In this document: in pieces, positions 13,301 to 62,998 of the stretch
Numbering within the stretch: the first letter of the stretch is position 1
How the letters are laid out: each line of letters opens with the position of its first letter
NCBI GenBank assembly: GCA_013298595.1
Contig: JAAFIG010000010.1
Span: 69,260-133,259 of the forward strand
DNA length: 64,000 bases
Origin: Deinococcales bacterium
Lineage (GTDB): Bacteria > Deinococcota > Deinococci > Deinococcales > JAAFIG01
Reading direction: 5' to 3'
The notes under the pieces: model-generated
Databases searched by the model: none
Seen by the model: only the letters and a program-made list of their open reading frames with translations
Told to the model about the DNA's origin: nothing
Translations under genes and position numbers: made by a program

Positions 13301-13554
13301 ATAGGTATATTACTTGATTCAAAAAATTCAGACAAACCGACACTGGTAAATTCTTTGCGATTTACATTGTCTATAACTATATGTAATTTCTATCTGGCAT
13401 TACTTTACAAAAATTGCAGTAAACTAGAAATCGCTGCATAACAGTTCAAAAGAAAAAATTTACAACCCACCATAGAAGCGTACCTCGTTTGTTTCAAGCC
13501 AAACAATTTCTGAAGGATTCACTACGAACCGTAAAAGCCAACACTGGAGGTTAT

Positions 13555-15594
13555 ATGTTACTTCGTTATGCCGAACCCAATAAAGAACGTTTAATGGCTC
13601 GCACCCAAGCAATTCTTGGCGACCGTGTATCTGCCAAAGACTTTGCCAGTATTATTGCTGGGGATCTCACAACCATCGAGGAATTACCACAACCATTGGC
13701 GCGTCGTGTGCTTGATTTAACCCTACCAGAACAAGGTTTAGAAGCTATTCAAGGCAAAACCATTGATTTCCTCGAGGTTGCCAATTTAGATTTAGCCCGA
13801 GCTGCCTCGAGAAGTGTGATGCGTATTCAAGTTGGGCAAAGTCTTGGTACTGGTTTTATGATCAGCCCAACATTGTTAATGACTAATCATCATGTGCTAC
13901 CAGATTTTATCTCTGCCAGTCGTGCCAAAATTCAATTTGATTACGAAAATGATATTCATGGCGCAATCCGCGAAATCACCGAATTTAACCTCGAGCCTAA
14001 CCGTTGCTTTTTAACCAGTCCGATAGACGAGCTTGATTACACCATTGTTGCTCTTGGTACTCGTTTTCGTGGTGAAAAAGAGTTAAGCGAATTTGGTTAT
14101 TTACCATTATCCGCTGCAGGCAATAAGCACGCAATTCATGAGTTCTTAAATATTATTCAGCATCCAGAAGGTTCGCCAAAAATGATTGCTCTGCGTGAAA
14201 ATCGAGTTTTTGGGCGCGGAAAAAAAGGCTTTACGCTGTATTATGGTGCAGATACTCTACCTGGCTCGAGTGGTAGCCCTGTGCTCAATGATGAGTACGA
14301 AGTGGTGGCATTGCATCATGCAGGCGCACCAATGAATGATAAGACTTTTGAAGATGGTCGGCAAGCTGCTAGTGGCAACGAAGGTATTCGCATTAGTGCA
14401 ATTATTGACCACTTACAAAACCAAATGCCAACACTTCCAAGCGAGGCTCGAGATTTATTGAATGCAATGATTCAAACCAAGTTTCGCGGACCGAGCTTGA
14501 TGTTTGACCCTCCTTTTGAAGCGTATGCGCGTAGTCAAAAAACTTCGCAATCAGAACAAGGGGTTTTAGAAGCTGACGGTAGTGTCCGTTGGACAATCCC
14601 TGTACATCTGAGTATTAAAGTTGGTGATATTGCAGCACCAAATAAGCCAGTCACAAAAGCCATATCTCAGCCCGCTATAATCCCCCAGCAACCTGCTGTG
14701 GCACAACTCGAGAATCGTCGTCCATTGCCTGATTATGAAACGCGCCAAGGGTACGACCCAATGTTCCTTGGTGTCGAATTGCCCTTACCAAAACCCTCTA
14801 AAGTCTTAACTAAACAATTGCTCAAAATTGCAGCGAACCAAGCCAGTATCGGTGATTTAATTGGTGCACCAAAAACCGTGCTGCATTATCATCATTACAG
14901 TTTAGCTATTCATCAAGCACGAAAATTGGCTTGTTTTACCATTGTCAATATAGATGGCAGCAGCCATGTTGCAATTAAACGCGACGAAGCATTTACTCCC
15001 AGTCAAACTGTACTCGAGGCACTTGAAGGAAACGATGTTTGGATCGACGATCCGCGCATCCCGATTGGTAGTGTAACCAATCAAAAGTGGTACTCGAGTA
15101 ACAGCCGTTTTTTTGATCGTGGGCATTTGGTGCGTCGTGAAGACCCAAATTGGGATCCAGCAGGCGACCGAGATTTTATTCTTAAATGCAACGATGATAC
15201 CTTTCATTTTACCAATTGCTCACCACAAATTTGGTTCTTTAACCAAAGAACCAATCATTGGTTAGGTATCGAAGATTATGTCCTCGGTACAGCTCGAGCC
15301 TTTCAAGCACCGATTACTGTTATTTCGGGTCCGATTTTTAAGCCCGACGACCCTGAAATTGATCGTATGCAAATTCCACAAACTTTTTTTAAAATCATGG
15401 CATTCATTGATAGCCAAACCAATCAATTAAGCCATCAAGCTTTTTTAGCTAGCCAAGAAGATTTAATGAATATGCAACGACCCGCTCGAGAATTATTTGA
15501 AGCTCGAGAGGCAAAAATTGTTTATCCTGAAGCATTTGAAGCAGATATTCAAGAGATTGAAGCTTTAACGGGTTTACATTTTTCACTTTCCTAA
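13555..15594 (+). CDS. Fusion of V8/trypsin-like serine protease and DNA/RNA non-specific endonuclease
   Basis: 679 aa. Start at 13555 (MLLRYAEPN) because GGAGG lies five bases before it; an upstream in-frame TTG lacks one. Residues ~1-80 are a helical N-terminal domain of unknown type. Residues ~85-290 are a trypsin-like protease: T-N-H-H-V-L (catalytic His ~113), D-Y-T-I-V-A-L (Asp ~161) and G-S-S-G-S-P-V (Ser ~239). A linker rich in P and Q follows. Residues ~415-679 are a NUC1/EndoG-type nuclease with D-R-G-H (521-524) and the metal-binding F-T-N-C-S-P-Q segment. All core residues look intact. No signal peptide, so it probably acts in the cytoplasm. Such pairing suggests a stress- or phage-activated effector, but this is inference. 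Its last 30 codons recur at 17907-18003. Confidence 0.85.
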   Translation: MLLRYAEPNKERLMARTQAILGDRVSAKDFASIIAGDLTTIEELPQPLARRVLDLTLPEQGLEAIQGKTIDFLEVANLDLARAASRSVMRIQVGQSLGTGFMISPTLLMTNHHVLPDFISASRAKIQFDYENDIHGAIREITEFNLEPNRCFLTSPIDELDYTIVALGTRFRGEKELSEFGYLPLSAAGNKHAIHEFLNIIQHPEGSPKMIALRENRVFGRGKKGFTLYYGADTLPGSSGSPVLNDEYEVVALHHAGAPMNDKTFEDGRQAASGNEGIRISAIIDHLQNQMPTLPSEARDLLNAMIQTKFRGPSLMFDPPFEAYARSQKTSQSEQGVLEADGSVRWTIPVHLSIKVGDIAAPNKPVTKAISQPAIIPQQPAVAQLENRRPLPDYETRQGYDPMFLGVELPLPKPSKVLTKQLLKIAANQASIGDLIGAPKTVLHYHHYSLAIHQARKLACFTIVNIDGSSHVAIKRDEAFTPSQTVLEALEGNDVWIDDPRIPIGSVTNQKWYSSNSRFFDRGHLVRREDPNWDPAGDRDFILKCNDDTFHFTNCSPQIWFFNQRTNHWLGIEDYVLGTARAFQAPITVISGPIFKPDDPEIDRMQIPQTFFKIMAFIDSQTNQLSHQAFLASQEDLMNMQRPARELFEAREAKIVYPEAFEADIQEIEALTGLHFSLS

Positions 15595-16049: not shown

Positions 16050-17777
16050 TTATGGCTTAGGCTTGAGAATAGCCGCTTCAAAGTTGTTATTGGACTGGGC
16101 TAAGATGTCGCCATTGTCATTGATTTTGAGAAGGAAGGCATTTTCATAACCAGAGCCAGTCACATCAATTTTCTTGGTTGCACCATTGGTGGTGTTGTAA
16201 ACGTAATACAACCTACCTTGAGGGTTTGCAGGATCATCTGTGTAAAATAGTATTTCACCATTGTTATTGACATCCATAACCTCAAAACCATTGGTATTGG
16301 CTAAAGGTTTGGGAATACTTGTAGCAGCTTGAGCGCCCGTCCAATACTTCCAATCAAAACTAAGTTTACCGTTGATGAACGCAGTTTCTTTGGCAGCAAT
16401 CAACTCATTATCATTGAATACCATTGCGTTGCCCTTCTGGTTTGCTGCAAATGGCGTATATGCACCATTTTTTGAGATGCCTTCACTCCATAAAACACTT
16501 CCAGAAGCATTGACACCTCGAGCGTAATTGAATGAGCTACCACTTGCCATGACTGTTGTGCTAACGCCATTGTTCCAAATAAATGCCGAATTTTTAGTAC
16601 CGAGGCTTGTTCCCAAAATTGTTCCATTGTCGTTCAGACCAACAAGAGATGCGCTGTTCGGGTCAACCAATCCAAAATCAACTTCTGTTACGGTAGAACC
16701 ATTGTAGTAGACAGGCTGATTTTTCCCATCTTTGGTGGCGTAAAACATCACTTGACCACTCGAGTTGATGATTTCGCTAAAGGCAAGAATTGAGCTTCTA
16801 CCGCGTAGTAAATTTCCAAAATCAGCACTTAACCCATTTGGAAAGATTATTTTCGTCAAAGAAGCTGGCGCACCAACATGGACATCTGCGTTCAAAGAAC
16901 CAACATTGCTCCGCGTTGCAATCATGACCTGTCCAGCGTTGTTAAACCCAAAAGGAACAACTTGTACTGCGCCTTGCGGAGCTGGAATTTTAACCACGTC
17001 ATAATTGGCTGTACCACCATTTGAACTTGTCACAGTCATACTCACGGAGTTCGAGGTGATACCACCAGCACTGGCAGTGATGTTGCTTGTGCCAGTCGCC
17101 GCACCCGTGACCACACCTGCACTCGAGACTGTTGCTTTGCCTGTATCGCTCGAGGTAAAGGTAAAGGTGGGTTGCGTAGCAAGGTTTGTACCGCTCGAGT
17201 CTTTAGCAATGGCACTGCAATTGCTGCTCGTACCAACAGCAATGCTGGTTGGGGTGCAAGTCAAAGCGATGCTCGGGAGCGTATCAGGAGGGGCAACGTT
17301 TGGAACCACCAAGCTATACGTACCAAATCCAGGAATGATGACTGTCAGAATGTTCGTGGCTGTATCAAAGGTGTACGAAATTGTGATCCAAGTGCTGCCA
17401 TTAAGTTGTAATACCACAACATCAGAGATAATCGCTTGAGGGCGCAAGTGACCCAGACCAAGCGCCGCGATTTCGCTTGGCTGGAGTTTGATTTTCAGGG
17501 CGGCAGGATTGGCGAAATTACCTGTGCCACCGCCAACTGTGAAAGTCTTTCCGAGAATAAATTTTTGATTACTCGGAGCGGCTGGCGGGTTGGTGGTCTC
17601 GGTGATGGTCACAACGGTGTCCTGAGTTAATGCCCCTGTTGGGAAGACCACGCTGGCAACTCCATTGCTCGAGGTGACTGTGCCACCATTTGTGCCAATC
17701 ACTGGTGTGGGGTTTGGTTGTGGACAAGCCACCAAAACTGCTGCAAGAACTGCGCTGAGGAACAACCGACGTTTCAT
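16050..17777 (-). CDS. Surface lipoprotein with ZU5-like, Ig-like (BIG2) and HAF-type repeat domains
   Basis: 575 aa; the start at 17777 has AAGGAGGG before it and gives a lipoprotein signal (A-V-L-V-A-C, Cys 18). Residues ~28-55 (G-G-T-V, then F-P-T-G-A-L) resemble a ZU5-type domain; ~150-250 is a BIG2 bacterial Ig-like domain with a T-F-T-S-S-D motif and A-T-G-T-S-N-I-T-A; ~270-575 has recurring F-N-N-A-G-Q-V / L-N-D-N-G-T-I / V-N-N-N-G-E-I units like HAF extracellular repeats. Predicted exported and lipid-anchored. It stands between two 34-bp direct repeats and two 422-bp repeats, so it was inserted into the protease-nuclease locus. CTCGAG is present but sparser than in neighbours. Confidence 0.75.
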   Translation of the reverse strand: MKRRLFLSAVLAAVLVACPQPNPTPVIGTNGGTVTSSNGVASVVFPTGALTQDTVVTITETTNPPAAPSNQKFILGKTFTVGGGTGNFANPAALKIKLQPSEIAALGLGHLRPQAIISDVVVLQLNGSTWITISYTFDTATNILTVIIPGFGTYSLVVPNVAPPDTLPSIALTCTPTSIAVGTSSNCSAIAKDSSGTNLATQPTFTFTSSDTGKATVSSAGVVTGAATGTSNITASAGGITSNSVSMTVTSSNGGTANYDVVKIPAPQGAVQVVPFGFNNAGQVMIATRSNVGSLNADVHVGAPASLTKIIFPNGLSADFGNLLRGRSSILAFSEIINSSGQVMFYATKDGKNQPVYYNGSTVTEVDFGLVDPNSASLVGLNDNGTILGTSLGTKNSAFIWNNGVSTTVMASGSSFNYARGVNASGSVLWSEGISKNGAYTPFAANQKGNAMVFNDNELIAAKETAFINGKLSFDWKYWTGAQAATSIPKPLANTNGFEVMDVNNNGEILFYTDDPANPQGRLYYVYNTTNGATKKIDVTGSGYENAFLLKINDNGDILAQSNNNFEAAILKPKP

Positions 17778-17819
17778 AAAACCCTCCTTGAAATACTCGA
17801 GTCTCGAGTTGGGAGGCAT

Positions 17820-17853
17820 TTTAAGAAGAGGGCGTTACAGTTGGCGTAACAAA
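17820..17853. repeat. 34-bp direct repeat, copy 2
   Basis: Partner of 15946-15979. It lies 43 bp upstream of the lipoprotein start and could also hold the gene's promoter or regulator site. Confidence 0.85.
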
Positions 17854-17906
17854 ATTGTTCTTGTTGTTTTTCACGGTTTCAAATTATTTTTTCAGTTTAA
17901 TCTTTC

Positions 17907-18003
17907 TGAAGCTCGAGAGGCAAAAATTGTTTATCCTGAAGCCTTTGAAGCAGATATCCAAGAGATTGAAGCTTTAACAGGTTTGCATTTTTCACTTTCC
18001 TGA
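17907..18003 (+). pseudogene. 3' fragment of the protease-nuclease gene
   Basis: Encodes the same last ~32 residues (E-A-R-E-A-K-I-V-Y-P to L-H-F-S-L-S) as the gene ending at 15594, differing only at synonymous bases. No start belongs to it; the upstream sequence is unrelated. Confidence 0.9.
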
Positions 18004-43193: not shown

Positions 43194-44045
43194 TCAATCA
43201 CCTGCCACTACTAACTTGCTTGCGCCTACTTTATTTTCGTTATCAACACGGGTTTTCTCGAGAGCAATAAAGTAAATCAGCGTACCGAAACCAGCTTTGG
43301 CAATAATATCGGCAAGGCTATACCCAACTTGTAAAGCAACAATGCCAGTGGCGGATAAAGCACCAAAAACCAAAGGTAGCAGGTAAGCGATTGGGTAGAA
43401 ACCCCATGATCCAAACAATAATAAACGCAAGTTGCCCATCAGCAATTGAACTCGAGGCGGTTGGCTTTGTAAGGATTTACCAAGTTCAACAAACAAGGTG
43501 TAGATGATGTACAAGAATGGGATGGTGCTGAGCGTACCCCAGAGTAAACGGGTGCCAGTATCGGTTGAAACTTCGCCTGGATAACCCAGAACGATCATTG
43601 CTAAAGCTGCCACAACCAAACGTCCAATCATGCCTGAAGCGATGTTGCTGGCAAGCGCCAATACCGCAACTGCTTCGACCAACAACAATGGCACGGTCAG
43701 CACCCAATCGGCATAACGGTAAGCATCGTTGAATGGAATGCCTGTGGCTTTGTAAACACCATCCACAAAAGCATAGGATTCTTTCCAAGATTCAAAAATT
43801 CGCACGTAATGATAACAAGCGACTGCCACCACCAACGCCGAAACAAGCATGGCGGGTTGGTACTTTGCACTGAGATTTTGTTTGCCCAGCACAAAGAAAA
43901 TAAAAGCTGCTCCCATACAGGCAATAGCAATTGACAGCAATTGGTAAACCAAACCAAATTGACCTGCGCTAAGCTCGAGTGGAGCAGCCAGTGCTGAACT
44001 GCTCAGTAAGGCTGCAACTGTAACTCCTAAGACCGATTTTTTCAT
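43194..44045 (-). CDS. Proton-pumping microbial rhodopsin (DTE type)
   Basis: 283 aa with a cleavable-looking signal (A-L-A-A-P, ~1-19) and seven helices. The start at 44045 has GGAGGAG upstream. Helix C reads R-Y-A-D-W-V-L-T-V-P-L-L-L-V-E: Asp acceptor, Thr, and Glu donor, the DTE set of light-driven outward proton pumps. The spectral-tuning position equivalent to GPR 105 is Leu, predicting green absorption. Helix G has D-I-I-A-K-A-G with the retinal Schiff-base Lys. No retinal-synthesis gene (blh, crt) is in the window. It shares an operon with the 68-aa membrane protein. Confidence 0.92.
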   Translation of the reverse strand: MKKSVLGVTVAALLSSSALAAPLELSAGQFGLVYQLLSIAIACMGAAFIFFVLGKQNLSAKYQPAMLVSALVVAVACYHYVRIFESWKESYAFVDGVYKATGIPFNDAYRYADWVLTVPLLLVEAVAVLALASNIASGMIGRLVVAALAMIVLGYPGEVSTDTGTRLLWGTLSTIPFLYIIYTLFVELGKSLQSQPPRVQLLMGNLRLLLFGSWGFYPIAYLLPLVFGALSATGIVALQVGYSLADIIAKAGFGTLIYFIALEKTRVDNENKVGASKLVVAGD

Positions 44046-44461
44046 ATTTTCTCCTCCATATACATCTCGGGTCAAAAAGGCAGGTAAACCTAACCCCAAG
44101 CTAGGTTTTTCTAAAGCAATGCCTTTATGACTAATAAAATACTATTCCTCGAGATTGCCTAAGCACAGTTCAAGCGGATACCATTTCTTTTATGTATGCG
44201 TGTATATTCAAATGTACTTCGAGTTACCGAAAAACCTATTTTGCCAAAGTTTACATGTACTGTATGGCTAAAATAAGTTGTCCCTGAAAGCCCAAAAGCT
44301 ATTTTAAGAAGGGTAGCCTTGCGATACCTTAGTTGTGTTTGTAATGCTGACCTTGTTATGGTCAAATACGAGCAAAAATTGTGTCTTTTTTCGCATTGAC
44401 CTACTACATCTAGCGTTTACAAAAACGCTGACCTCGAGCAGCAGTATGCTAGACTAATACA
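44046..44461. other. Divergent intergenic region between rhodopsin and ftsK
   Basis: 416 bp. Contains the ftsK leaderless promoter at the right end, a short hairpin AAACCTA/TAGGTTT around 44092-44115 in the rhodopsin leader, and a GACC-TTGTTAT-GGTC inverted repeat near 44353-44367. A 68-codon open frame on the minus strand has no start signal or family look and is not called. No RNA gene recognised. Confidence 0.5.
44450..44455 (+). promoter_or_regulatory. Leaderless-type -10 box of ftsK
   Basis: TAGACT six bases before the ATG at 44462; CTGACC at 44428-44433 is a plausible -35 at 16 bp. Confidence 0.75.
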
Positions 44462-54467: not shown

Positions 54468-55643
54468 TCAGTTCAGTAATTCAAAAATACCAGCCGCACC
54501 TTGCCCACCACCAACGCACATCGTCACCATGCCGTAACGCCCACCACGACGACGAAGTTCACTCAGCAAAGTCGCCGTTAATTTCGCACCCGTACAACCC
54601 AACGGATGCCCAAGCGCAATAGCACCACCATTGACATTAAGCTTATTCGGATCAATCCCCAGTTCGCGCACCACAGCCAAAGCTTGCGCGGCAAAAGCTT
54701 CGTTCAATTCAAACAAATCAATATCTTTCAACTCGAGACCCGCCAGTTTTAATGCCTTAGGCACAGCTGCAACAGGACCAATTCCCATGATTTCAGGTTC
54801 AACCCCAACACTGGCAAAACTCACAAAACGCGCAAGTGGTTTCAAACCCAGTTCTTTTGCTCGAGAAGCACTCATCAGCACGGCAGCAGCCGCACCATCG
54901 GAAAAAGGACTCGAATTACCCGCTGTTACACCACCACCCTCTTTGAAAGCACCACGCAACTTACCCAACCCCTCGAGCGTGGTATCCCGACGCAAAAGTT
55001 CATCCGTATCAAACATCAATTCACTCGAGACGGTTTTCGTACCTTTGAGCTTATCCACACGCACAGGCACAGAAACAATTTCATCCTTGAACTTACCAGC
55101 ATCCTGAGCCGCCGCTGCCCGCATATGAGACTCGAGCGCAAACGCATCCATATCCGCCCGATTAACACCATATTTTTCAGCAACATTCTCGGCAGTATGA
55201 CCCATACCAATATACGCACCCGGTCTCGAGTGCACCAAGGCATTATTAGCAGAAAAAGCAAAACCAGACATTGGCACAAGGCTCATGCTTTCCGCACCAC
55301 CAGCGATAATACAATCATTCGAGCCAGAACGAATCGCCTGAGCTGCCATCGCAATAGTTTGCAAACCAGAAGCACAAAAACGATTGATTGTCACACCAGC
55401 CACGGAATCAGGCAAACCAGCTCGCAAACTCGAGAGACGTGCAAAATTTAGTCCCTGCGAACCCTCAGGCATGGCACAACCAAGAAAAACATCCTCGACA
55501 AGATTTGGGTCAACACCCGCCCTCGAGACAGATTCTTTTAACACAACAGCCGCGAGATCATCAGCTCGAGTATTTGACAATGTGCCTTTTAAGCCACGAC
55601 CAACGGCAGTACGGACGGCGGATACGATAACAGCTTCATTCAT
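54468..55643 (-). CDS. fadA: Acetyl-CoA acyltransferase (3-ketoacyl-CoA thiolase)
   Basis: 391 aa thiolase: nucleophile Cys in R-F-C-A-S-G-L-Q-T, the [10 protein letters not shown] His and [10 protein letters not shown] Cys. Performs the last step of beta-oxidation, with the fadN-like enzyme at 57751. GAAGGAG precedes the ATG and lies inside the 3' end of the SUKH gene, whose stop overlaps the ATG. Confidence 0.92.
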
Positions 55644-56173
55644 GGGGTTGCTCCTTCGAGGGTTAGCTTGAAATAATTTTCCATATATGTATCTAGGTTC
55701 GCAGCTTGAAAAGTAATTTGAGGATCGGTATTTTCTTTTACTATTTCAGCATAAAACTGATAAAAACCTTGTTGGGCGATCATAGAATTGTCCGAATTAG
55801 AATCAAAATAATAAAATGAGCCAAGTCCCGATGCACCATCATTAGCATCATCTATTGGAATTATCTTAAAATTTTTTAACACCTTTGGATATTTTATACG
55901 GAAAATATAATCTGTATCTATTACTATTTCCTTGTAGCCCATTTTAATTGCTTTTAGATTTAATACAACATCTTGGGTCGAAGCGATAATTTGATAACTC
56001 CATCCGTTATTATCACCATAAATGCCATTAGCAAACGTATAAAAATCTCTTAAATCTTCGGGCAACACAAAACCAAGTTCGTTCTCTAATTGAGAAATTT
56101 CAGTATTTTTTGCAGAAGGACGAATATCAAAGCCCCTGTATGTAAGTTTTCTAATCGCTTCTAGCCATTGCAT
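55640..56173 (-). CDS. SMI1/KNR4 (SUKH) family protein
   Basis: 177 aa. N-terminal helix then [21 protein letters not shown] and A-N-G, the SUKH signature. Such proteins are often immunity proteins to secreted nuclease toxins, but here no toxin gene is adjacent. The gene has no CTCGAG in 534 bp and is visibly A+T richer than its neighbours, so it is probably a recent acquisition. Its last codons (E-G-A-T-P) are the ribosome site of fadA, and the stop overlaps the fadA ATG. Confidence 0.82.
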
Positions 56174-56254: not shown

Positions 56255-56950
56255 TCAAACTCCTTTTTCCTTCTCGAGCCACCGCGCAGGATTACCTTCA
56301 ATATAATCACGGCATCGCTCGAGTTCAGCATTATTACGAACAATACGATCATAAAACCCGCGTTGCCAAAAACGTTTTTCAAATGGCATCCAATTGTGTT
56401 CACGCACCCCACGAATGTATTGATTGGTGGTGATGGATTTGAATGCACTAATCACATTACCCAACACAGGATTCATTGCCATATTATGTGTAGGGGCGAC
56501 CCTTGTGGTCGCCCTGTGCGACACGAAATCGTTCAAAACAGTTGCATCAATATTGTTTTTCACGTCATTGAATACAGGCACGCTGATAATCGAATCGTTA
56601 TTAGTCACGCGGGCGGGTACAAGACCCGCCCCTACGGGGTTATGGACAATTGATTTGTTATTAACGCCAACCACATTTTCATTATTTCCATTCAATACGA
56701 TAATGCCGTGAACATGGTCTGGCATAATAATAAATGCGTCTAAGGTGATATCAAATTGATCGGTTAATTTCTGCCATGTCTCGAGAATCATTTGACCTGC
56801 AATATTCAGTTGCACCCCTGTTGGCGTGACCTGTCCAAACCATTCAGAGTTGCGTAATTGGCTGCAAATCGTCACGAAATACGCCCCTGCACTCAAGTAA
56901 TCGTAGGTTTCGAGGCGCATCGGTTTGCGTTGGATGAGATGTGGTGTCAT
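56255..56950 (-). CDS. REP-associated tyrosine transposase (RAYT)
   Basis: 231 aa. Y1 HUH-type fold: I-M-P-D-H-V-H-G-I (the HUH His pair) and F-W-Q-R-G-F-Y-D-R-I-V-R-N with the catalytic Tyr. RAYTs mobilise or maintain REP sequences in their genomes. Two REP units lie inside this gene in frame, encoding the V-G-A-G-L-V-P-A-R and R-A-T-T-R-V-A-P-T stretches. Its ATG overlaps the stop of the hydrolase gene (ATGA), so it is embedded in the fad operon. Three CTCGAG words inside. Nothing looks broken. Confidence 0.9.
   Translation of the reverse strand: MTPHLIQRKPMRLETYDYLSAGAYFVTICSQLRNSEWFGQVTPTGVQLNIAGQMILETWQKLTDQFDITLDAFIIMPDHVHGIIVLNGNNENVVGVNNKSIVHNPVGAGLVPARVTNNDSIISVPVFNDVKNNIDATVLNDFVSHRATTRVAPTHNMAMNPVLGNVISAFKSITTNQYIRGVREHNWMPFEKRFWQRGFYDRIVRNNAELERCRDYIEGNPARWLEKEKGV
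56490..56514. repeat. REP unit inside the RAYT gene
   Basis: GTAGGGGCGACC, CTTGT, GGTCGCCC; coding for the R-A-T-T-R-V-A-P-T stretch on the minus strand. Confidence 0.78.
56609..56635. repeat. Second REP unit inside the RAYT gene
   Basis: GCGGGCGGGT, ACAAG, ACCCGCCCCTAC; encodes V-G-A-G-L-V-P-A-R on the minus strand. Confidence 0.78.
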
Positions 56951-57750: not shown

Positions 57751-60018
57751 TTAGTTACGCAGTGGTTTGCCTGTTTTTAGGGTGTGGGCAATGCGTTCTT
57801 GGGTTTTGCGTGTGCCGCATAAGTACAAGAAGGCTTCGCGCTCGAGGTCTAAGAAGTGTTGCTCGGGTTGTTTTGTTTGGCGGTTCATATTTCCGCCTGC
57901 GAGGATTTTCGCAAGTTGCATGGCAATAATTCCGTCGTGTTCGCTGGCTTGGCGGCTGAGTTGCAATCCATGAACTGCCACTTTTAAGTTGGCAATGGCA
58001 CTTTCGCCCATGGCGATAATCTCGGCTCGAGGTTGGGGTTGCACATAGTCTTTGGCTAGCTCGAGCACCTTGGTTTTTGCGTCGGACAGGAGTCTATCGC
58101 GGTTCATGGTGATGCCGTCGGAGGCTTTTAAGTACCCAAGTTCGCGTGCCTCGAGTGCTGATGTACTGGTTTTTGCGAGGGCGATTTGTTCAAAGGCTTT
58201 GCGAACTGCACTAAATGAGTCTTCGTTGGGGAGTAGTTGTTCGGTGAAGCGTGCCAGCATTTCGGTTGTACCGCCACCGCCTGGAATTAAACCAACGCCA
58301 GCTTCGACTAAGCCCATATACAATTCGGCATGGGCTTGCACGTGGTCGGCGTATAATGAAATTTCGCAACCACCACCAAGGGCTAATCCAAAGGGTGCAG
58401 ATACGGTTGGGAATGGGCTGTACCGCATGGATAAAACAAATTTTTGAAATTGACGGATACTCAGGTCTATTTCGTCAAAATCGCCTTCTTGGGCTTGTAA
58501 TAACAGCACTGCAAGGTTGGCTCCTGCACTAAAATTATCACCTTGATTACCGACCACTAAACCCGCAAAGGATTCTGCTACCACTTTTTGGGCGTGCTGC
58601 ATGGCACGAATCATGTCTTCGCCAAGGGCATTGGCTTTGCTATGAAACTCGAGCAGTGCCACACCATCGCCAATATCCACGAGGCTTGCGCCTTGCCATG
58701 CTTTGATGGTTTTGCTCGAGTCGCGTTTAAGGTCGCGCAGCACAATCAAACCGTTCTTTTGACCTGTGGCATCGTTGTAAAAAGGTTTGCCTTGCTCGAG
58801 TAATGCTGGTACATCCAAACCGAGGGCTTTTACGCCTGCTATGACGGTGTCGTGACCAAGTGCATCGGCAAGATCAAAGGCTCCGATTTCCCAGTTAAAA
58901 CCCCATTTGAGAGCGTTGTCCACCTCGAGTACCGTGTCGGCACAGGCAGGAATATTTTTTGCAGCAAACCAAATTAAACCGTAAACATTGCGACGCACCA
59001 ATTCGCCAATATTGTTCTCGAGTTTGAGTAGTGCTTTGATACGCGCAACAGCTGTTGGTAAGGCTCGAATATCATCTGGAACTCGGACTTTACCATTGTC
59101 TTTGTACTCGAGGGTTTCGTAATCAAGCGTTAAAATAAGGCTTTTACCATCTTTACCTTTAACTCGCTTAAAGAATCCCTCACCTGTTTTTTCGCCTAAA
59201 CGCCCAGCTTCGACCAGTTTTTCCCAAATCGCAGGTGGTGCATAATCAAAACCCGTACTCGAGCCAAGATTCTTTGCGACGGCTAAACCAATATCTAAAC
59301 CCGATAAATCGTTGGTACGAAAACTGGCACTCGAGGCTCGTCCGACCAAAGGTCCAAGAATGGCATCGACTTCGTCTGGACGCAATCCAAGTTCGACAGC
59401 GTCGCGCACGGTATGCACCATGCCCCAAACACCAATGCGGTTAGCAATAAACCCAGCCACATCCTTAGCCACAACCACGCCTTTGCCTAGCACTTTATCG
59501 CCAAATTCAGAAACCGCTGCAATCACATCTGGGCGAGTATCGGCAGTTGGAATTACCTCGAGCAGTTTAAGGTACCGTGGCGGATTAAAAAAGTGCGTGC
59601 CGACAAAACGCGCTTTGAATTCAGCACTGCGGTCTTGGATTTGTAAGTGCATGGGGATGCCGCTCGAGTTACTACTGACAATCGCTTTAGTACCCGTCGC
59701 TTCGACTTTGCCCCAGAAATCTTGTTTGACATCTAAGCGCTCAAGAATCGCTTCAAAAATCCAGTCCACACCTGTTAGTTTGCCAATATCATCCTCGAGA
59801 TTCCCAATTTGAATCAGTTGTGCAGCTTTGGGGTGCATAAAGGCAGCGGGTTTAGCTTTCAATGCCCGCTCGAGACCTTTTTTGACAATTTCGTTTTTAT
59901 CTGCGCCAGTTCCAGCAATATCGAGCAGCAACACTGGAATTCCTGCATTTGCGAGGTGAGCGGCGACAGCAGCGCCCATTGTACCAGAGCCGACAACAGC
60001 GGCTTTACGAATCTTCAT
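57751..60018 (-). CDS. 3-hydroxyacyl-CoA dehydrogenase / enoyl-CoA hydratase fusion (FadN-like)
   Basis: 755 aa. The dehydrogenase is N-terminal (G-S-G-T-M-G-A-A-V-A-A-H-L NAD fold; G-T-H-F-F-N-P-P-R-Y-L-K and N-R-I-G) and a crotonase-fold part is C-terminal (~420-650: F-S-A-G-A-N-L and G-L-I-P-G-G-G-G-T oxyanion region). This order is the FadN type, the reverse of E. coli FadB. Steps two and three of beta-oxidation; thiolase at 54468 completes the pathway. AAGGAG before the ATG. Heads the operon. Confidence 0.92.
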   Translation of the reverse strand: MKIRKAAVVGSGTMGAAVAAHLANAGIPVLLLDIAGTGADKNEIVKKGLERALKAKPAAFMHPKAAQLIQIGNLEDDIGKLTGVDWIFEAILERLDVKQDFWGKVEATGTKAIVSSNSSGIPMHLQIQDRSAEFKARFVGTHFFNPPRYLKLLEVIPTADTRPDVIAAVSEFGDKVLGKGVVVAKDVAGFIANRIGVWGMVHTVRDAVELGLRPDEVDAILGPLVGRASSASFRTNDLSGLDIGLAVAKNLGSSTGFDYAPPAIWEKLVEAGRLGEKTGEGFFKRVKGKDGKSLILTLDYETLEYKDNGKVRVPDDIRALPTAVARIKALLKLENNIGELVRRNVYGLIWFAAKNIPACADTVLEVDNALKWGFNWEIGAFDLADALGHDTVIAGVKALGLDVPALLEQGKPFYNDATGQKNGLIVLRDLKRDSSKTIKAWQGASLVDIGDGVALLEFHSKANALGEDMIRAMQHAQKVVAESFAGLVVGNQGDNFSAGANLAVLLLQAQEGDFDEIDLSIRQFQKFVLSMRYSPFPTVSAPFGLALGGGCEISLYADHVQAHAELYMGLVEAGVGLIPGGGGTTEMLARFTEQLLPNEDSFSAVRKAFEQIALAKTSTSALEARELGYLKASDGITMNRDRLLSDAKTKVLELAKDYVQPQPRAEIIAMGESAIANLKVAVHGLQLSRQASEHDGIIAMQLAKILAGGNMNRQTKQPEQHFLDLEREAFLYLCGTRKTQERIAHTLKTGKPLRN

Positions 60019-60150: not shown

Positions 60151-62670
60151 ATGGAACAATTTAATAACCAAACAGTTTTGACTGACCCTGAGATAAATCA
60201 ACCACAAAAAGAATTGCCAAAAGTACAAACTCAAAAATCCTCTATTTCATTTTTTGTCATTTGCCTTGTCATTGGTTTTGTTTTGCCGTTAAAGCCAGTA
60301 CAAGATTTTTTAGCCATCATTACTGGTGGTGCATGGAAACTTTCACCTCAAATCTCCGTTTTTACTCTTTTCCTAATCTTCCCAATGCAACACCTCGCCA
60401 TTATTATTCATGAATTTGGACATCTGGCATTTGGGTGGTTCAGTGGTTTTAAACCAAGCGGTTTAATTCTTTTTCCATTTGCATGGCTTCGTGGGAAAAA
60501 AGGTTGGATGTATCACCAAATTCCAAATGCCCCATTTGGTGGTGGTATGGCAATGATGTACCCAGTTGGATTTACCAGATTACGTGAACGTTTGTTCTGG
60601 TTTACTATAGGCGCGGGGTTAACCAATATCCTAAGCGGACTTTTATCGCTTTACTTAGGTGCTGTATTCGCATCAGGTTTTCAGGGGAAACCTTCAAGTT
60701 TTGGGCATCCTGCTTTTTACTTTGCAATCTTTGGGCTGATTTCGATTTGGATTGGCATTGGTGCGTTAATCCCACGGACATATCAATCCCGTGGTTTTAA
60801 AGGTCTTATGAGCGATGGCAAACGTGCTCAAAGATTATTGCAGAACAAAGAAATTGAGTCAGAATTAGGGTTAATTCAAATTGAAGGTTTAATCTATCAA
60901 GAACAACGCCCTCGAGAATGGTCAAATGCTTTAGTTCAAAAAATTACTTCTGAAACAATCTCAAGTTTTATAGATGTTTCTGGGCTTTATTGTTCTTATC
61001 AATCAGCTTTAGATAACAATGACATTCCCAAAGCAAAGATTCTGCTTGAGCGTGTACTTGAAAATATCCACCTCACATCTGAATTCACCCAGAGTGAGTT
61101 TCGTTATGAAGCAGCTTTTTTTGCTGCGCGATACGAAAAAAATGCAATTACTGCACGAACATGGTTTGAACAAGGCGAACTAACACTGCGTTTAGCAGAT
61201 AACACCCGTTTGCGTGCTGAAACTGCATTGCACATCATTGAAAATCGTCCAGCTCAAGCTTATGCAACTGCTCAAGAAGCTCTTGCTTTGATGGAGGAAC
61301 GAATTGACCAAGGCTTGGTGCGTTTCGAGCGCGACTTGTTCAAGCTCATGACTTTAGAGGTTGAGCACGCCGCACAAATGCCACTCGAGCCGTATCAACC
61401 AATAGAAAAATTAGAACGTAAAATCTTTACTTATATGGGAGCCATTTGGATTGTTTTAGCTTTGTTTTTGCTATTTCAAATGAGTGAAACTATTGCATTT
61501 TTAAAACCTAAAACCGCAATTCCTACTGACATGGGACTTAGACGTGCTCTAAAAGTTGCAGGTATTCCATTTGGCAGTCTGATTGCTCTTGTACTTGCGT
61601 TGCCTTTTGCAAGCATAATCACTCGAGTCGGTTATCTTATAGCTGGTATATCGGCAAGGCTTCGATTTGGCACATTTCATATCAGTGGTTTCTCGAGAAT
61701 TGTACGGCACAACAAAAAACTTAAATTTGCCACATCAGCCATTTCTGCTTTACTAGGGGAAACAGGTTTACTTGCGCCAAATACTAATCAAAGTATCAAG
61801 CGTCAGTTGCAAAAAACCCTTTGGGGTGGCTGGGGTATTTTGGTAGTCCTAGGTACAATTGGACTAGCACTTAACGAGTTCGCTGAACGTAATTTCTGGG
61901 ATCAAAAAGTTGCTATGCAGATCTTACAAATCTGGGGCGTGGAGGGTCGCACATTGCTACAAATATGGGGGATTACGACACTATTGATACCACTCATTCC
62001 TTACGGTTTTTTGCTTATTGCGTTTGGATGGCTGTTTTCTTTTCTGAGATTAAACGTTTTTGACGGAGCTTGGCGCTTAGCGTTGATGTACAAAAACGGA
62101 AAAGAAACTGAACGTGAAGCAGCTCGAGTTGCCATTATTGGTGCTGCTACCAACGGTATTCGCCCTCGAGACTGGTCAGAAGATTGGTTAAAATCCGTAA
62201 CCCAAGGTGACCCAATCTGTCCTCGAGATGTGCACATGCTTATCTGTGCTTATTTTGCAGCACTAGACCATAATCAAATTAACCAAGCTCGAGAGTACCT
62301 AGAACGAGCTAGTGCGGCTGCTCATTTTTTACCGTTTCCCTTTAATCGAGCTTTGCTTCTCGAGCAAGTCTTTTACACAGCTTGGTATGCCGAAGATGCA
62401 CAAGCCGCACGAAAAATCTTGCAACACGAATCTGGATACCGAATAGATACAACAAGTTTTCATCGTGTTCTTGCAGCTCTTTATTTTGTGGAAAACAAAT
62501 TAGATCAAGCAAAAGTAGCAATTCAAACAGCTCGAGCAAACATCGCTAAATCACAACATCCTGGCATCGCTATTTTTGAAAAAGATTGTTTGGATCAATT
62601 AGAAATTGCAATGCTCGAGAAAAAATCAAATCTCGAAATCCAAGCATCACAAAATAATCTTGAAGTTTAG
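60151..62670 (+). CDS. Internally duplicated M50-type metalloprotease / TPR membrane protein
   Basis: 839 aa from ATG 60151 (GGAGA before it). First half: helices, then H-E-F-G-H in I-I-I-H-E-F-G-H-L-A-F-G (intramembrane zinc site of M50 site-2 proteases), G-A-G-L-T-N-I-L-S-G, and a ~180-residue TPR-like section. The second half repeats this order with weaker likeness: I-I-T-R-V-G-Y-L-I-A-G sits where HEFGH was, and R-P-R-D-W-S, A-L-D-H-N-Q-I-N-Q-A-R-E-Y-L-E-R-A pair with R-P-R-E-W-S, A-L-D-N-N-D-I-P-K-A-K-I-L-L-E-R-V. So copy 1 keeps zinc ligands and copy 2 lost them. The usual third ligand Asp is not obvious even in copy 1. Substrate unknown. The first 750 bp have no CTCGAG. Confidence 0.75.
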   Translation: MEQFNNQTVLTDPEINQPQKELPKVQTQKSSISFFVICLVIGFVLPLKPVQDFLAIITGGAWKLSPQISVFTLFLIFPMQHLAIIIHEFGHLAFGWFSGFKPSGLILFPFAWLRGKKGWMYHQIPNAPFGGGMAMMYPVGFTRLRERLFWFTIGAGLTNILSGLLSLYLGAVFASGFQGKPSSFGHPAFYFAIFGLISIWIGIGALIPRTYQSRGFKGLMSDGKRAQRLLQNKEIESELGLIQIEGLIYQEQRPREWSNALVQKITSETISSFIDVSGLYCSYQSALDNNDIPKAKILLERVLENIHLTSEFTQSEFRYEAAFFAARYEKNAITARTWFEQGELTLRLADNTRLRAETALHIIENRPAQAYATAQEALALMEERIDQGLVRFERDLFKLMTLEVEHAAQMPLEPYQPIEKLERKIFTYMGAIWIVLALFLLFQMSETIAFLKPKTAIPTDMGLRRALKVAGIPFGSLIALVLALPFASIITRVGYLIAGISARLRFGTFHISGFSRIVRHNKKLKFATSAISALLGETGLLAPNTNQSIKRQLQKTLWGGWGILVVLGTIGLALNEFAERNFWDQKVAMQILQIWGVEGRTLLQIWGITTLLIPLIPYGFLLIAFGWLFSFLRLNVFDGAWRLALMYKNGKETEREAARVAIIGAATNGIRPRDWSEDWLKSVTQGDPICPRDVHMLICAYFAALDHNQINQAREYLERASAAAHFLPFPFNRALLLEQVFYTAWYAEDAQAARKILQHESGYRIDTTSFHRVLAALYFVENKLDQAKVAIQTARANIAKSQHPGIAIFEKDCLDQLEIAMLEKKSNLEIQASQNNLEV

Positions 62671-62686
62671 GGTAACGCGAAAATCT

Positions 62687-62998
62687 TCAGTGCAGATTAT
62701 CAAAGCACTTCTTGCCAAGCTCGGCAAGTTGCCAAGACTTGAGCCATCGGTCTGATTCTTCAAGGTACACCCCATTTGCATCTGGAAACACTCGAGCATA
62801 ATTGATGCTGGGGCAGAAATTCTGGAACGAAAGCACTTCATGGGGCGCGGCTATACTGAAATATCCTTGCATGGCTCGAGCTACAGCAACATCACTAGTG
62901 TGACGCACACTGCTACCATCGGTGAAGCCTAATCCAGCTGCTCGAATTTGTTTTGGGTCACTGCCTTGCACGCCTGTGTAGCCTTGGGCAAGAATCAT
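62687..62998 (-). CDS. Small hypothetical protein, possibly a remnant
   Basis: 103 aa, not recognised. No ribosome site; frame open only to a stop ~17 codons further. The residues look protein-like (G-Y-T-G-V-Q-G, F-C-P-S-I-N-Y-A-R-V-F-P-D-A-N-G, helix at the C-terminus) and the reading frame holds CTCGAG words at the local rate. It may be the 3' end of a larger ancestral gene. Convergent with the M50-TPR gene (16-bp gap), divergent from chrA. Confidence 0.45.
   Translation of the reverse strand: MILAQGYTGVQGSDPKQIRAAGLGFTDGSSVRHTSDVAVARAMQGYFSIAAPHEVLSFQNFCPSINYARVFPDANGVYLEESDRWLKSWQLAELGKKCFDNLH

Follow-up and report, generated by a model that had tools for sequence, protein, structure and literature searches.

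The window analysed here is a 64,000-nucleotide stretch of a Deinococcales genome (contig JAAFIG010000010.1). One of its open reading frames runs on the + strand from an ATG at 60151 to a stop codon at 62668-62670 (whole gene, 60151..62670), with GGGAG a few bases 5' of the ATG, and encodes 839 amino acids with no internal stops. A preliminary description of this DNA, made from the letters alone, had given the same coordinates, which are correct, and had read the product as a tandem M50-TPR protein with an active and a dead protease copy. The gene stands alone. The flanking frame at 57751-60018, which from reading its sequence we take to encode a 3-hydroxyacyl-CoA dehydrogenase/enoyl-CoA hydratase-like protein, is divergent, and the next frame at 62687-62998 is convergent. 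In a relative of the same genus (G001), different genes follow the corresponding dehydrogenase gene (89% identical), and the fused gene is absent. The convergent frame (62687-62998, -, 103 aa) is what remains of a 279-aa gene still intact in G001 (L133:4898-5734, -); this gene is xylose-isomerase-like and of the TIM-barrel type, with a weak match to PF01261.

The protein consists of two units of ~420 aa each, both with the order helices, M50-like membrane segment and TPR-like C-terminus. When the protein is cut near residue 417, the best local alignment of the two halves scores 165-167, compared to a mean of ~37 (s.d. ~5) for shuffled halves, and none of 200 shuffles reaches the real score. 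BLASTP aligns residues 233-416 with residues 234-417 of the second half (E 2e-17, 30% identity, 185 residues), and RPREWS at residue 253 in copy 1 is paired with RPRDWS at residue 671 in copy 2. The self-alignment proposed in the preliminary description as a check on the duplication thus finds significant internal similarity. This direct similarity is confined to the TPR-like part, however. The membrane parts, compared directly by BLASTP over the N-terminal 200 aa of both halves, show no significant similarity (E 0.43), so the M50-like segment of copy 2 needed other evidence.

Copy 1 (residues 1-417, 60151..61401) is the catalytically intact unit. Its zinc-binding/catalytic motif, HEFGH at residues 87-91 (60409..60423), sits within a predicted helix (65-97), and the third zinc ligand motif, SDG at residues 221-223 (60811..60819), lies on a separate segment downstream of HEFGH in a column common to the family of single-unit relatives described below. 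The AlphaFold2 model of copy 1, made from a five-sequence alignment (pLDDT 76), begins with helices 22-44 and 47-63 and the motif helix 65-97, continues with strands 100-107, 110-114, 119-123 and 132-138, and then has helices 144-175 and 185-206, followed by SDG and the TPR helices. The M50-like membrane core (residues 65-223, 60343..60819) matches RseP in structure comparison, both 7w6z (Z 12.1, rmsd 3.5 over 142; model residues 66-233) and 7w6x (Z 11.7, rmsd 3.1 over 138), and Foldseek ranks the M. jannaschii site-2 protease (S2P; 3b4r) fourth for copy 1 (prob 1.00, E 0.053). As modelled, copy 1 has the S2P core fold.

Each membrane segment is followed by a TPR-like domain, comprising residues 222-409 in copy 1 (60814..61377; RPREWS at 60907-60924) and residues 637-838 in copy 2 (62059..62664; RPRDWS at 62161-62178). 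Both are recognized by their helix hairpins and by matches to TPR structures, with Z up to 13.6 for copy 1 (LGN TPR, 173 residues, rmsd 4.7) and Z 11.6 for copy 2 (D. radiodurans 3gw4, 185 residues, rmsd 5.2), but these matches show the fold only, as helical repeats tend toward high Z. The Pfam family TPR_19 scores 11.5 bits on copy 2, under its cut-off of 25.

Single-unit relatives, for which the preliminary description had suggested a search, do exist: profile searches find them in Bacteroidota, Acidobacteriota, Burkholderiales and the window's own phylum. A hand-written consensus served as bait only, and what we state about the family is based on real sequences. The bait matches copy 1 over its full length (E 3.5e-32) and, in copy 2, the TPR part, and a contig scan with a bait-containing alignment led to three real loci, in a Burkholderiales MAG (L034), Hymenobacter translucens (L035) and an Acidobacteria MAG (L036). 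Follow-up profiles, built from these three sequences and the window protein, revealed ~20 single units in a set of 241 Hymenobacter-order genomes, one more in Acidobacteriota, one more in Burkholderiales and further ones across Bacteroidota. The window's phylum has a complete single unit (G101) and another that seems to be divided between two contig ends (G002). Most single units are 360-430 aa long. They have the same architecture and motifs as the window protein (HExGH, a GG...P segment, S/T-DG, an RPRDW-like motif and a TPR-like tail), but with one unit per protein, whereas the window protein has two, the second of them dead. In the working alignment, whose rows include both window copies, 18 of the 21 rows match Peptidase_M50 at E <= 0.01. 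L035, L071 and L082 exceed the Pfam cut-off for PF02163; the whole window protein stays under it (E 0.037, 13.8 bits, cut-off 27.2).

HExGH is kept in 20 of 21 single units that were chosen without regard to the motif, a count that excludes L142-L147, L075 and G838 because these were chosen by motif, and the Asp is kept in nearly all. The sole exception to HExGH among the 21 is acidobacterial (L036:4764-5927, the same as L039), an unfused pseudoprotease with AAAAR at the HExxH place and EG for DG. Active-site loss is therefore rare in this family, yet there is at least one further case, in a unit that is not fused. Some single units (L151, L153, L148, L034) lie beside or near ABC transporter genes. 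We do not propose an operon common to the single units, since most neighborhoods have no transporter. In the Burkholderiales MAG, a DUF898 protein (L034:2056-3303, +) is encoded near an ABC exporter and the M50+TPR gene. We found no paper on the single-unit M50+TPR architecture or its function in the open-access literature.

For copy 2 (residues 418-839, 61402..62667), the evidence on the membrane segment is indirect and comes in part from these relatives. A profile of 19 live single units, with the window copies left out of the build, gives 204 bits for copy 1 and 107 bits for copy 2. Copy 2 is colinear with profile positions 55-388 of 394, and this alignment places TRVGY (residues 491-495, 61621..61635) exactly under HElGH. 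The third-ligand motif is retained as FDG (residues 637-639, 62059..62067). BLASTP of copy 2 against the single unit L072 extends across residues 77-400 (E 2e-14); the best match of copy 2 overall is copy 1. Taken alone, the copy-2 membrane half (M50-like core, residues 474-639, 61570..62067) scores 10.6 bits against the profile, and its first 200 aa score 11.6 bits. This level is reached by none of 200 full shuffles (maximum 3.3) and by none of 20 hydrophobic segments from window proteins (maximum 2.1). Local block shuffles that keep hydropathy reach it in 1 of 1,000 cases, and in 3 of 1,000 with a larger profile.

Structure prediction, also proposed in the preliminary description, agrees with the alignment: the separately run AlphaFold2 models share the same helix order and four strands, although both models used the same five sequences and are therefore not fully independent. 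In the copy 2 model, helices 2-31 and 44-52 and the motif helix 57-84 precede strands 89-94, 96-103, 106-116 and 121-125, after which come helix 132-162, some more helices, FDG and TPR helices that match those of copy 1. Confidence in this model is moderate (pLDDT 70 overall, about 40-75 in the membrane part). No S2P appears among the matches listed for it in the fold comparison, a list filled by TPR chains, so that it does not show the S2P fold to be absent.

With both units in register on the single-unit profile and the TPR halves alike, the tandem of two like-ordered units stands as first described, and so does the contrast between a live copy 1, with HEFGH and SDG, and a dead copy 2, with TRVGY at the aligned place. 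In copy 2, T, R and Y replace H, E and H, while the Asp of the second motif is kept. That copy 2 is catalytically dead is well supported from its residues, because both His ligands and the catalytic Glu are lost, residues counted as catalytic in the S2P literature (PMC10202637). Ongoing decay is argued against by a frame that is open throughout and by the same codon-position GC pattern in the two halves (0.51/0.39/0.31 for copy 1 versus 0.53/0.40/0.29 for copy 2).

The fused arrangement was found in the window's genome only. Among ~1,270 genomes, no other has two matches in one frame, although the Bacteroidota-wide part of this search used a strict threshold and few candidates were scored per genome, so that rarer fused cases could be missed. 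A full-protein search of 111 genomes of the phylum returned the protein itself and one contig-end fragment; no fused ortholog was found, the same-genus genome G001 included. There are likewise no full-protein relatives in IMG/VR or in plasmids (tblastn), and no match in NCBIfam. The preliminary description knew of no described protein like this one. That stands for the fused pair, found only here, but not for the M50+TPR architecture, which is widespread as a single unit. The pair of copies is old. In the tree, copies 1 and 2 are not sisters, but their monophyly is not rejected (p-AU 0.17), and the long branches (2.05 for copy 2 versus 1.51 for copy 1) make the tree unsafe; it therefore decides neither for duplication nor for paralog fusion. 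Most likely, two units of an otherwise single-unit family were joined, which would have happened by tandem duplication or by fusion of divergent paralogs.

With moderate confidence, we propose that the gene encodes a site-2-protease-type (M50-like) protease fused in one chain to its own dead copy, which may serve as a fixed inactive partner. From what is known of S2Ps, copy 1 would bind zinc and cleave a substrate that spans the membrane or is associated with it. S2Ps have HExxH and, on a different membrane segment, an Asp-Gly ligand motif, and their activity drops when these are altered (PMC10202637). The TPR domains are probably cytosolic, since each follows the Asp-Gly segment, the place at which SpoIVFB carries a CBS domain in the cytosol, below its membrane core (PMC11486902); by analogy with this C-terminal CBS domain, they may dock a substrate or a regulator. 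The most tentative step of the scheme is that copy 2 would pack on copy 1 as its permanent, inactive partner and, in this position, hold, orient or block the substrate. The oligomers of SpoIVFB seen by cryo-EM are detergent artefacts in the view of their authors (PMC11486902), and natural dimerization of M50 proteases thus lends no support to such a pseudo-dimer. Gating of substrate entry by the dead half, as suggested in the preliminary description, is plausible by analogy. The stronger version, in which the dead half would control the live half from within the same chain, accepting or blocking a substrate helix at its degenerate groove while the TPRs relay a cytosolic signal, so that the protease would contain its own regulator, is a possibility that we regard as doubtful.

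Other explanations of copy 2 must be weighed against this proposal. One is that copy 2 is an evolutionary leftover, whose active site was lost under weak constraint after the joining and which has no particular role. The restriction of the fused protein to a single genome, the longer branch of copy 2 and the low confidence of the membrane part of its model would all fit a leftover. However, about 420 codons have stayed open with the codon-position GC pattern of copy 1, copy 2 retains its TPR part and FDG, and the profile matches nearly the whole of the unit, which together make this explanation rather unlikely in our judgment. Another is that copy 2 has no M50 fold: the TPR part alone would have been duplicated, the membrane segment of copy 2 would consist of unrelated helices, and the position of TRVGY under HEFGH would be a coincidence. 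This would account for the lack of direct similarity between the membrane halves, for a copy-2 membrane signal of only ~10 bits that 1-3 in 1,000 block shuffles reach, and for the lack of a listed S2P structure for the copy-2 model. It is hard to reconcile with an alignment that stays in register through the whole unit, with the BLASTP match to L072 across residues 77-400, with the same predicted order of elements, the four strands included, and with FDG at the SDG column of the family, and we consider it very improbable.

The remaining explanation drops proteolysis altogether. The protein could lack protease activity and use its doubled M50 fold as a membrane scaffold or as a transporter-type component, with TPRs that bind partners. 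A role as membrane pore components has been proposed for M50-like membrane proteins of HlyD/SecA-type gene modules (PMC4452313), and the ABC transporter genes near some single units, as well as the one acidobacterial single unit without any active site, point in the same direction. Yet the retention of HExGH in copy 1 and in 20 of 21 single units, with the Asp in nearly all, is what selection for catalysis predicts, and most single-unit neighborhoods show no transporter. A role of this kind is thus improbable, and the live protease with its dead copy as a fixed partner is the model that we carry forward.

Comparison with known systems shows where this model goes beyond them. Like the window protein, the M50 proteases RseP, SpoIVFB and M. 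jannaschii S2P have HExxH and a downstream Asp-Gly on separate segments and membrane strands after the motif helix. They differ in their accessory domains, which are PDZ in RseP and CBS in SpoIVFB and M. jannaschii S2P instead of TPR, and none of them pairs a live with a dead copy in tandem. The analogy with rhomboid pseudoproteases drawn in the preliminary description is workable, but M16 peptidases, EGY3 and the BofA/SpoIVFB system are closer. M16 peptidases, such as pitrilysin and insulin-degrading enzyme, have an active and a degenerate half of a duplicated protease in one chain; they are soluble and of unrelated fold, with no TPR and no membrane part. Within the S2P family, EGY3 is a plant chloroplast pseudoprotease, but it is a separate single-unit protein, so far reported only in plants and with no fusion to a live copy (PMC9355673). 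BofA blocks the active-site cleft of SpoIVFB in trans (PMC9042235). The likeness that we propose to BofA/SpoIVFA-SpoIVFB is a membrane partner that would occupy or control an M50 active-site cleft; BofA, however, is not a degenerate protease and is encoded separately, whereas the partner in the window protein would share the chain. Live and dead halves are thus known from M16, and separate pseudoproteases from the S2P family; of their joining within M50 we found no report in the open-access literature.

How S2Ps choose their substrates and let them in is still debated: an inhibitor protein has been modelled in the active-site cleft (PMC9042235), and another study argues for substrate gating (PMC6242693). 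A natural fusion with a dead copy fixes the stoichiometry at 1:1, and deletion or alteration of one half would give access to the role of the inactive partner. The analysis also brings to attention a widespread M50+TPR family for which we found no functional description in the open-access literature.

Several other features of the window were recorded in passing. The frame at 13489-15594 (+) encodes a fusion of a trypsin-like protein with a DNA/RNA non-specific endonuclease, and the last ~30 residues of its product (EAREAKIVYPEAF...LHFSLS) are found again at the end of a short frame at 17665-18003 (+), apparently a partial copy of the gene. From reading alone, the product of 43194-44099 (-) resembles a microbial rhodopsin (RYADWVLTVPLLL ... 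DIIAKAGFG). An IS200-like (Y1) transposase gene at 56255-56950 (-) lies between the genes for a SUKH-1 protein (55640-56173) and a hydrolase.
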